From: Methanococcoides alaskense
Lineage (GTDB): Archaea; Halobacteriota; Methanosarcinia; Methanosarcinales; Methanosarcinaceae
Assembly: GCF_027594145.1 (NCBI RefSeq)
Contig: NZ_JAQFFK010000005.1
Location: 1 to 64,000 of the forward strand
DNA: 64,000 bases
Direction of reading: 5' to 3'
Positions 49,485-52,538 of the stretch are shown one piece after another. Numbering within the stretch: the first letter of the stretch is position 1; every line of letters begins with the position of its first letter. Position numbers and translations under genes: made by a program. The notes beneath the pieces were generated by a model. That model ran no database searches, was not told where the DNA came from, and saw only the letters and a program-made list of their open reading frames with translations.

Positions 49485-49894
49485 CTTGATCTTGAGCAAT
49501 TATAATATCATTGACCTTAAGTGATGGACCTTAAGGATATATGGGGAAATATGAATAAATAAGCATACTGGAAGCAGTGAATCTGCCATCCTTTATGTGT
49601 AGTTTATTCTATCAACATGCATATTGACCCCATGGCCTATGAATTTCCTAAAGCAAATTCTGTCAAGAGCTTTCTTTTCAAGTTAGTGGGGTCAGATAAA
49701 CCCTAAAATTGTCGCAATACTAACATCTTGAGCATGACGATCTCATCAAGGTTTGATCTGCAACCTTACTCTGTTTTGCTTATACATTTCTGCTATAATT
49801 GAAAAAAATGGTTTCCAATCTCTGACATATTATATTTCTGAGATTTGTCTCCGGGATTTTCTAGAATACTTTTCCCGTATGGTGCTTACAATCT
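49485..49894. other. intergenic region, no gene seen
   Basis: About 410 bases between the glycosyltransferase and the operator cluster. No reading frame has recognisable features, and no strong repeat or RNA fold was found. Confidence 0.5.
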
Positions 49895-49895
49895 A

Positions 49896-49976
49896 TTTCA
49901 ACTTAATTTGAAACCGCCATCTATAAATATGTATTTCAACATTCTTTGAAATAGCAAGTTTCAATATTATTTGAAA
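49896..49976 (+). promoter_or_regulatory. three copies of TTTCAA-N6-TTGAAA operator around a TATA box
   Basis: Dyads lie at 49896-49913, 49932-49953 and 49959-49976; all share TTTCAA, six bases, TTGAAA. A TATA box (CTATAAATATG) lies at 49921-49931 between the first and second. The second and third overlap the expected start of transcription, so a dimeric winged-helix repressor (ArsR type would fit) is likely. No such regulator gene is adjacent. Confidence 0.75.
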
Positions 49977-50035
49977 TGCCTTGAAGCTGCTCAATTGACA
50001 AAAATTACTGTATGATAAAGACAGGATGAGATCGT

Positions 50036-50269
50036 ATGAAAATAGAAATATTAGGTACGGGATGTGCAAAGTGCGTTAAGACAAAAGAGATAGTTGAAAA
50101 AGCTCTTCAGGAAAGTGGGCTCCATGCGGATGTTGTCAAGGTTGAAGATTATGAGACCATTCTTTCCTATGGAGTAATGATCACTCCCGGGCTTGTCATT
50201 GACGGTGAGGTAATGATCGCCGGCAGAGTTCCCAGTGTGGACAATGTCAAAAAATGGATCACCGGATAA
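50036..50269 (+). CDS. small thioredoxin-like redox protein
   Basis: 77 residues. LGTGCAKCVKTKEIVEKALQ carries the redox-active Cys-x-x-Cys of the redox-active disulfide protein 2 family, and MITPGLVIDGE supplies the cis-proline. Such proteins accompany ArsP-like permeases and DGC proteins. It is the first gene of an operon controlled by three identical operators. It probably reduces or delivers a thiol-bound substrate. Confidence 0.9.
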   Translation: MKIEILGTGCAKCVKTKEIVEKALQESGLHADVVKVEDYETILSYGVMITPGLVIDGEVMIAGRVPSVDNVKKWITG

Positions 50270-50330
50270 TGATACAGTCCAATTTCCATGATACAGTATT
50301 ATAATTATAAAATTAGAAAAGGTATTAAAA

Positions 50331-50711
50331 ATGACTGAAAATATGAAATGTGGCTGTGAATGTGATTCAGAGATCGTTGGTATCTATCCATGTTCAGGTT
50401 CAGCGAATGTAGGTATCATCTCTAACCAGCTGGCAATAGGACTGACAAAAGCTGGGAAGGGCAAGATGTTGTGTACCGCCGGAATCGGTGCAATTATCCC
50501 CGGTCAGTTGAGGTCTGCAGAGGGTTGTGACAGGGTAGTTGTGATAGATGGCTGTCCAATGAACTGTGCCTCTAAAATTTTCGAGAACGCCGGGATGGCA
50601 GTGGATGAACATATAATTGTCACCGAACTTGGCGTGAAGAAGACAAAGGATATGGAGATCGAGGATTCGGTGATCTCAGAGAGCCTGGAAAAGTGTGTCA
50701 AGCTTTTCTGA
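50331..50711 (+). CDS. DGC-domain putative zinc-binding protein
   Basis: 126 residues. CGCECDSEIVGIYPCSGSAN, MLCTAGIGA and VVIDGCPMNCASKI carry the cysteines and the D-G-C motif of the DGC family (PF08859). The family is often found beside metal or arsenic permeases. It lies 60 bases after the thioredoxin-like gene, with AGAAAAGG before the ATG. It could bind a metal or sulfur species taken over from the thioredoxin. Confidence 0.85.
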   Translation: MTENMKCGCECDSEIVGIYPCSGSANVGIISNQLAIGLTKAGKGKMLCTAGIGAIIPGQLRSAEGCDRVVVIDGCPMNCASKIFENAGMAVDEHIIVTELGVKKTKDMEIEDSVISESLEKCVKLF

Positions 50712-50864
50712 TCGCTTTTTATGATCTTTATGAAAACGAAAAGGATGCTAAAATATAACGTATCTACTAAAACAGTGATGTTATAAGATACATGACAGGT
50801 GTGAGCCAGCCTTATAATTCAAAGATGCTGTCCCCTGTCAATTAACTCTGGAGGAAATGATACT

Positions 50865-51830
50865 ATGGTTGACGTGTTCTATCCCATGCAGTGGATAGCA
50901 GATAAGGTCACCTACGATCTACTTGGGATCGAAGCCACCACAGGTCTTGCAAAAAGCCTGAATTTTATTATCTACGATGTACTGAAGATATTCGTACTTC
51001 TTTCTGTAATGATTTTCCTTATAGCTTACATGAGGTCCTATATTACTCCTGAGAAATCCAGAAGGATACTTGGGGGCAAAAAAGGACCGGTATACAATGT
51101 AGCTGCATCACTTGTGGGTACTGTTACCCCATTCTGTTCATGTTCATCTGTTCCGATCTTCATCGGTTTCATTGAAGCAGGCGTACCCCTTGGTGTGACA
51201 TTTTCGTTCCTCATCACCTCGCCTCTTGTTAATGAAGCAGCCATTGCCGTGCTCTGGGCTACATTGGGATTCAAGGCTACCGCACTCTACGTTGTTTCAG
51301 GTGTTGTCATCGGTGTTGTCGGAGGTTATATAATAGGCCTGCTCAAGCTTGAGAGACACGTTGCAGGCTTTGTCTATGATGTCCACTCCCTACCTTTTAA
51401 GGAAGCTGAGATGGGCTCCAGACAGAGGTTAGATTATGCGGTTGAAGAGGTCAAAAGCATTGTAGGTAAGGTCTGGTTCTATGTTATCATAGGTGTAACT
51501 CTTGGGGGTATATTCCACGGATTTGCTCCAGAAGGAATACTTGCACAGTATGCAGGAAAAGATAATATCTTCGCTGTCCCTGTTGCAGTACTGATAGGTG
51601 TACCACTCTATTCCAATGTCATGGGTCTGATCCCTGTGGTTGAAAGTCTTATTGGAAAAGGGCTCCCCATCGGTACATCCCTGGCATTCCTGATGTCTGT
51701 CACTGCAGTATCACTGCCTGAGATGATCATATTGAAAAAGGTGCTTAGCAATGAACTGATCGCCCTGTTCGTGGCGATAGTGGCAGTAGCTGTGATATTC
51801 ACAGGATATATGTTCAATGCGGTTCTGTAA
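50865..51830 (+). CDS. DUF318/ArsP-type permease
   Basis: 321 residues, about eight helices in two halves. GTVTPFCSCSSVPIFIGFIE carries the conserved CSCSSVP motif of the permease family (PF03773, COG0701), and NVMGLIPVVE is the repeated second-half motif. Family members export organoarsenicals or other thiol-reactive metalloids. GGAGG lies 12 bases before the ATG. The gene ends the thioredoxin/DGC/permease operon. The inverted repeat TGACAGG...CCTGTCA upstream at about 50790-50842 might be a further control element. Confidence 0.9.
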   Translation: MVDVFYPMQWIADKVTYDLLGIEATTGLAKSLNFIIYDVLKIFVLLSVMIFLIAYMRSYITPEKSRRILGGKKGPVYNVAASLVGTVTPFCSCSSVPIFIGFIEAGVPLGVTFSFLITSPLVNEAAIAVLWATLGFKATALYVVSGVVIGVVGGYIIGLLKLERHVAGFVYDVHSLPFKEAEMGSRQRLDYAVEEVKSIVGKVWFYVIIGVTLGGIFHGFAPEGILAQYAGKDNIFAVPVAVLIGVPLYSNVMGLIPVVESLIGKGLPIGTSLAFLMSVTAVSLPEMIILKKVLSNELIALFVAIVAVAVIFTGYMFNAVL

Positions 51831-51889: not shown

Positions 51890-51955
51890 TCAATAGAGAT
51901 CTTCCACTCCAATAGTTCCGTTGTGCAGTTCAGTGATCTTCTCTTTAATCTTCTT
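51890..51955 (-). pseudogene. 3' remnant of a histidine kinase
   Basis: The minus strand reads KKIKEKITELHNGTIGVEDL then Tyr and TGA. It matches the C-terminus of the kinase at 52837-54405 (KKITELHGGHIGVED). The fragment starts inside the end of the CBS gene. Nothing of the rest of a kinase is left. Confidence 0.65.
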
Positions 51956-52538
51956 CATCTCTGCAGCTCTCGCACAATATTCTCCCATCTACTGTTGCAA
52001 GATCAACTAAATAGTAACCACATCTCTGGCATATTCCCCCCTGATATTCTTCTTCCGCCATAACATTTTGTTCGTGGTTCATTTCTATGAGATCTGCCAG
52101 TATCGTAGTCAATCCGGGTGCTATCGTAAGTAGGTCCCTGACTGTGATGATGCCCAAAATCTTCCCATTCTGCATTACAGCAAGTCTGCGAATATTGGTC
52201 TTAGACATTATTTTAGAAGCATCTATGACATTCGTGGATGGTTTGATCATTATCAAGGGAGATGACATGAGCATGGAAGCAGAGACATTTTCAGGTTTCT
52301 TGTTCTTTGCTACTATTTCTCTTATCATGTCTCTTTCAGTTATGATCCCCACTGCCTTATCGTTCTTTGTTACGATTATGCTGCCCACATTGTGCTCTAT
52401 CATCTCCTTTCCGACTTTTAGAGCACTTTCCTCGATATCTGTGGTAATCACTTTTTCTGTCATTACTTCCTTGACCGAGATATATTTCTCGATCTCTTTA
52501 ATAGATTCGTTTGTCTCCTGATCATTTGTAGTATCCAT
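51945..52538 (-). CDS. CBS-pair protein with C-terminal zinc ribbon
   Basis: 197 residues. Two CBS domains (VKEVMTEKVITTDIEESALK and SSPLIMIKPSTNVIDASKIM) are followed by a zinc ribbon, ICQRCGYYLVD and LCESCRDEED. CBS pairs bind adenine nucleotides; the ribbon may contact nucleic acid or another protein. It is a regulator-type architecture common in methanogens. Monocistronic, with the kinase gene 300 bases upstream in the same orientation. Confidence 0.88.
   Translation of the reverse strand: MDTTNDQETNESIKEIEKYISVKEVMTEKVITTDIEESALKVGKEMIEHNVGSIIVTKNDKAVGIITERDMIREIVAKNKKPENVSASMLMSSPLIMIKPSTNVIDASKIMSKTNIRRLAVMQNGKILGIITVRDLLTIAPGLTTILADLIEMNHEQNVMAEEEYQGGICQRCGYYLVDLATVDGRILCESCRDEED

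Follow-up and report, generated by a model that had tools for sequence, protein, structure and literature searches.

Repressors of the ArsR/SmtB family act through inverted-repeat operators placed over promoters. Several operators at one promoter, as described here, are also found for MDR1 of Archaeoglobus fulgidus, an archaeal metal-dependent repressor that differs in belonging to the DtxR family and in repressing when metal-bound. In Thermus thermophilus HB27, the ArsR/SmtB protein TtSmtB acts over chromosomally scattered arsenic genes and has a 6-2-6 palindrome over the promoter, with one mapped site, according to the cited portion of PMC5658604. The arrangement proposed below resembles it in pairing ArsR/SmtB-type control of scattered arsenic genes with a palindrome over the promoter, whereas the TtSmtB system, in the same portion of PMC5658604, differs in its bacterial -35/-10 promoter, its single mapped site, the sequence of that site and a third Cys at the N-terminus. 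MsvR is a methanogen repressor that likewise has several boxes over BRE/TATA and autoregulation, and it differs in its V4R redox domain and in the box it uses, as described in the cited portion of PMC3729527. None of the loci read here linked MsvR to ArsP or Trx genes, and full-text searches of one literature library found no described operator for metalloid control in methanogens.

Exact dyads around a TATA box

The window, which is the whole 64-kb stretch of Methanococcoides alaskense DNA analysed here, is archaeal DNA from a family to which the methanogen genera searched also belong. It contains three exact copies of TTTCAA-N6-TTGAAA around the TATA box of a thioredoxin/DGC/permease operon, confirming both the dyads and the gene order reported in the earlier note:

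49896..49913, no strand: predicted operator dyad 1 (TTTCAACTTAATTTGAAA), on the upstream side of the TATA box; eight aligned promoters are invariant at 16 of its 18 columns
49922..49929, + strand: TATA box TATAAATA, flanked by dyads 1 and 2
49934..49951, no strand: predicted operator dyad 2 (TTTCAACATTCTTTGAAA), in the interval from the TATA box to the expected start; lost with 25 bp in the relative L033
49959..49976, no strand: predicted operator dyad 3 (TTTCAATATTATTTGAAA), immediately beyond the expected start; invariant at 14 of 18 columns, including every position of both arms
50036..50269, + strand: thioredoxin-like protein (Trx), MTH895/ArsE family, 77 aa (TIGR00412, PF13192, PDB 1ilo)
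50331..50711, + strand: DGC-domain protein, 126 aa (PF08859, 111.3 bits, cut-off 27)
50865..51830, + strand: ArsP_1-type permease, 321 aa (PF03773, 230.1 bits, cut-off 32.3)

The three operators had been called identical, which is true of the arms only, since the spacers, each of 6 bp, differ (CTTAAT, CATTCT and TATTAT). When spacers of 0 to 15 were scanned in 49781-50035, a TTTCAA/TTGAAA dyad was found with a 6-bp spacer only. The TATA box lies 8 nt downstream of the end of dyad 1, which by position adjoins the BRE region, and 4 nt upstream of the start of dyad 2. We assumed for the window the spacing of M. acetivorans msvR, whose start site is placed ~27 nt past the TATA centre in the cited portion of PMC3729527. 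The start so assumed is expected near 49952, where dyad 2 ends, and dyad 3 falls at about +7 to +24, so the earlier placement of two dyads over the expected start is roughly right.

Trx belongs to the MTH895/ArsE thioredoxin-like family by TIGR00412 (104.3 bits, cut-off 62), also matched PF13192, and aligned with MTH895 (PDB 1ilo) at 4.2e-15. The permease fell under the equivalog cut-offs of SaoE (111.5 of 325 bits) and SO_0444 (93 of 300 bits). A gene for a CBS-domain protein with Cys pairs near its C-terminus (51945-52538) is convergent with the operon.

The triple dyad is far from chance. The window's genome (1.97 Mb, 76.6% complete) contains four exact dyads, three of them at this promoter, and no match to a reversed-pattern control, while a first-order model of the window predicts 0.03 exact dyads in 64 kb and 0.93 in the genome. 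Dinucleotide shuffling of the 200-nt promoter produced 19,993 sequences with no dyad, 7 with one and none with more in 20,000 trials. With two mismatches allowed, 16 dyads were found in the window vs 10.8 expected, which is near chance, and weight was therefore placed only on exact or clustered sites. A random scatter of the dyad across the genome without promoter association, the outcome that the earlier note had set against its own reading, was not seen.

Across the genus there are 47 exact dyads, 25 of them placed at metalloid operons (three, in G020, G021 C121 and G022 C21, solely by distance to the Trx gene) and 22 elsewhere, some intragenic. The fourth exact dyad of the window's genome (L001:1501-1518, G000 C3:673222) is single and lies within a long intergenic region, 246 nt ahead of a Flavodoxin_3 gene. 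An exact dyad before the ribosomal L3 gene is shared within the genus, with the exact string in four genomes and the gene read in L155 and L156; it is single and adjoins the ribosome-binding site, and it was not counted as an operator (L155:345-362, L156:1944-1961). In two genomes of one genus, an exact dyad pair 34 nt apart stands before another gene (L160:2869-2920, L161:2886-2937), which in L161 encodes an FmdE-like protein of 220 aa.

Conservation of the paired dyads

The operators, their geometry and their linkage to ArsP, Trx and ACR3 genes and to one clade of ArsR proteins, types C and D, are conserved. An exact pair bracketing the TATA box is present in 46 of 111 family genomes, compared to 0 of 111 for the reversed-pattern control. 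The exact pair was also found in 38 of 392 drawn phylum genomes, 5 of the 38 being outside the family, and all five outsiders, the fifth of which is G157, have it at ArsP2/Trx operons. The dyads of a pair are spaced 36-40 nt apart in each of 62 oriented readings, a set drawn from the loci available for this count in which some shared promoters are also read in reverse. In 36 of these 62, a TATA-like AT-rich octamer begins 17 nt from the upstream dyad centre.

In the eight aligned promoters (seven from the window's genus and that of G052), the invariant columns given above for dyads 1 and 3 compare with 7 of 90 upstream, where the other 83 vary; in L033, the loss of 25 bp merged dyads 2 and 3. 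Outside the genus, the window's operon is matched best by that of G052, where Trx identity is 80% and both the operon and the triple dyad are the same. A Trx homologue is present in 97 of 111 family genomes. Of the 30 best loci, 19 show a dyad with at most one mismatch less than 300 nt upstream of Trx and 11 do not; in some of these 11, Trx is internal, behind the ArsP2 permease, and the dyads are at the ArsP2 promoter. The operon of G016 (L165:3591-4402) looks degraded, with ArsP and DGC fragments and a stop in Trx, and its dyads are nearly intact.

A candidate regulator among ArsR proteins

One clade (support 97/95) unites ArsR types C and D, which have an LCVC metal motif and an LSYHL recognition helix. 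PF01022 (cut-off 22) was matched by type C of the genus member G022 (44.7 bits), type C of G068 (47.0) and type D of G157 (46.1), and NF033788 (cut-off 55) by the last two (65.8 and 72.8). A Cys-x-Cys motif (CVC or CAC) occurs in 27 of 28 distinct ArsR rows, the exception, L151, being outside the C/D clade, and most C/D proteins read have two Cys only, those of this motif. Like the repressors CadC, SmtB and CzrA (PDB 1u2w, 1r1t and 1r1u), which type D matches by sequence with E from 2.4e-7 to 1.3e-6, C/D ArsRs are small winged-helix proteins. Unlike them, the clade is archaeal, mostly has two Cys, and goes with TTTCAA-N6-TTGAAA in TATA-bracketing pairs, the window having three such dyads.

The linkage of this clade to the operator supports an ArsR-family regulator, as the earlier note had proposed. 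First, type C is present, among the matches listed, in at least 25 of 111 family genomes, presence beyond the genomes aligned being judged from alignment ranges: 7 in which it is divergent across the dyads, 8 of one genus and 10 of the window's genus. G052 is one of the seven, and there type C faces the triple-dyad operon across 168 nt. For the eight genomes of one genus, five loci were read, and no dyad within one mismatch was found before the gene. Second, outside the family, type D directly follows or adjoins ArsP2/Trx in 11 of 17 genomes, the 17 being hand-picked from the 392 phylum genomes as all five pair-bearing outsiders and relatives; G421, which has the pair and is outside the family, has no close type D. 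Third, eight of these 11 genomes, picked by ArsR-ArsP linkage, lack an exact pair, and the prediction that their ArsP2 promoters would carry the dyads was borne out: seven show a pair with up to two mismatches there, and the eighth has a single exact dyad, whereas 16,000 shuffles gave one pair. Of the tests made here this one carries most weight, since ArsR and not the dyad decided the choice of loci.

In the window's genus, type C was found in 10 of 10 other species among the matches listed, unlinked to the operon (locus read in five, L135-L139), which bears out the claim that the regulator is encoded elsewhere. The window's own genome, G000, has no C/D ArsR among the matches listed, just an L017-type match, and the 2.8-kb genus locus containing type C is missing from this 76.6%-complete genome, save one 66-bp match. 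We presume that the missing part contains the window's own type C gene. Two pair-bearing family genomes, G003 and G110, have no clear C/D ArsR among the matches listed. The expectation that the regulator's own promoter carries the dyad holds where the ArsR is in or across from the operon but fails for stand-alone C/D ArsR genes, whose 250 nt upstream contain a dyad within one mismatch in 0 of 17 and a two-mismatch match in 2 of 17. Other ArsRs of the window's genome were considered as the regulator and rejected, L016 and L017 with loci containing no dyad within one mismatch, and L018 and L019 with no Cys motif.

Judging from sequence patterns, we consider it probable that an ArsR/SmtB homodimer of the C/D clade uses the three dyads as its operators, is released by an arsenical and controls the trx-DGC-ArsP_1 metalloid operon. 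It is unlikely that a different ArsR, either the L017 type or the in-operon type A of Methanosarcina, binds the dyads and that C/D is a mere passenger. The L017 type is widespread in the family, adjoins an ArsP_1 permease and is present both in the window's genome and in G003, yet the L017 gene of the window's genome (C4) has no dyad within two mismatches in its 3.1-kb locus. Type A is the ArsR found inside Methanosarcina-type operons, but it has no high-identity match in the window's genus or Methanolobus. Moreover, the recognition helices of the rival ArsRs (TQSAISHNL, TQSNTSMHL) are unlike those of C/D (SKLSYHL/SALSYHL), and outside the family the ArsR linked to the operator is type D.

Regulon and proposed mechanism

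Among the genes led by the dyad are those for the ArsP2 permease, Trx, DGC, a YfcE phosphodiesterase and ACR3, together with a universal-stress/ACR3 operon and genes for an MFS transporter and a SAM methyltransferase. The first gene in the 62 readings is ArsP2 in 35, methyltransferase in 8, Trx in 7 and others in 12. In a dyad-led operon of the window's genus, ACR3 scored 398.9 bits with TIGR00832, over the equivalog cut-off of 282.8, so the metalloid reading no longer depends on ArsP_1 alone, a family that is broad. An arsenite or arsenical transporter under shared control, which marks an ars operon, is present as ArsP_1 in the window and as ACR3 in the genus. The earlier note had named metalloid or thiol stress as the inducer; the occurrence of ACR3 and ArsP under the dyads supports a metalloid regulon, whereas nothing was found to favour thiol stress as such.

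Two other gene products were observed at the dyads. A Cys-containing DUF6951 protein (PF22263, 104 aa), a candidate for arsenic handling, is encoded just ahead of type C ArsR across the dyads (L112:1137-1451, L098:1130-1444). The SAM methyltransferase (L097:1625-2497 and relatives) is divergent from ArsP2 across the dyads and has an N-terminal part without a match; it is possibly an arsenite methyltransferase, with scores below the curated NCBIfam cut-offs shown.

From these observations we infer binding, release, the identity of the inducer and a repressing, not an activating, role. Without metal, one ArsR dimer would sit upstream of the TATA box and another between the TATA box and the start site, shutting out TBP/TFB and RNA polymerase, and the third dyad would recruit one more dimer immediately beyond the start. 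The proposed inducer is a trivalent arsenical, either arsenite or methylarsenite, or possibly antimonite; on binding to the two Cys of LCVC it would release the dimers and turn on trx, DGC and the ArsP-type permease, and the metalloid would then be exported or handled. Two-Cys ArsRs can be methylarsenite-selective, and methylarsenite is exported by ArsP; because most C/D proteins have two Cys, a methylarsenite sensor fits as well as an arsenite sensor. By analogy with MsvR, as described in the cited portion of PMC3729527, dimers at BRE/TATA would block TBP/TFB and polymerase.

We regard as very improbable the alternative in which an activator, or a redox regulator like MsvR, binds the dyads and the operon responds to thiol or oxygen stress. 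A redox function is conceivable for the Trx and DGC proteins, but the operator is common to ACR3 and ArsP genes. Dyad 1, upstream of the TATA box, is in a position open to activators, but one or two dyads follow the TATA box, lying ahead of the expected start or past it, a placement suited to repression. MsvR was rejected on its box, which is TTCGTAN4TACGAA or TTCGN7-9CGAA in the cited portion of PMC3729527, unlike TTTCAAN6TTGAAA. That the dyads are chance palindromes of AT-rich promoter DNA kept by descent is scarcely credible, the near-chance two-mismatch matches in the window notwithstanding, being already contradicted by the pair counts, the shuffles, the dyads kept while upstream columns vary, and the pairs outside the family.

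Returning to control by an arsenical-released C/D ArsR, the system may, more tentatively, be an archaeal one older than Methanosarcinaceae, in which a two-Cys ArsR, a possible sensor of methylated As(III), clamps the TATA box with two dimers over a scattered regulon of ArsP, Trx, DGC, ACR3, SAM methyltransferase, YfcE phosphodiesterase and Cys-containing DUF6951; we hold this wider proposal to be possible rather than probable. To the operator set seen in the earlier note, this analysis adds the conserved regulon, the dyad geometry and the likely ArsR clade; the regulon is well supported and of a known kind. For metalloid control in methanogens, the outcome is a concrete operator, regulator and set of genes that can be tested, and the conserved dyad can flag unstudied genes (DGC, DUF6951 and the methyltransferase) as likely to function in arsenic handling in anaerobic archaea.
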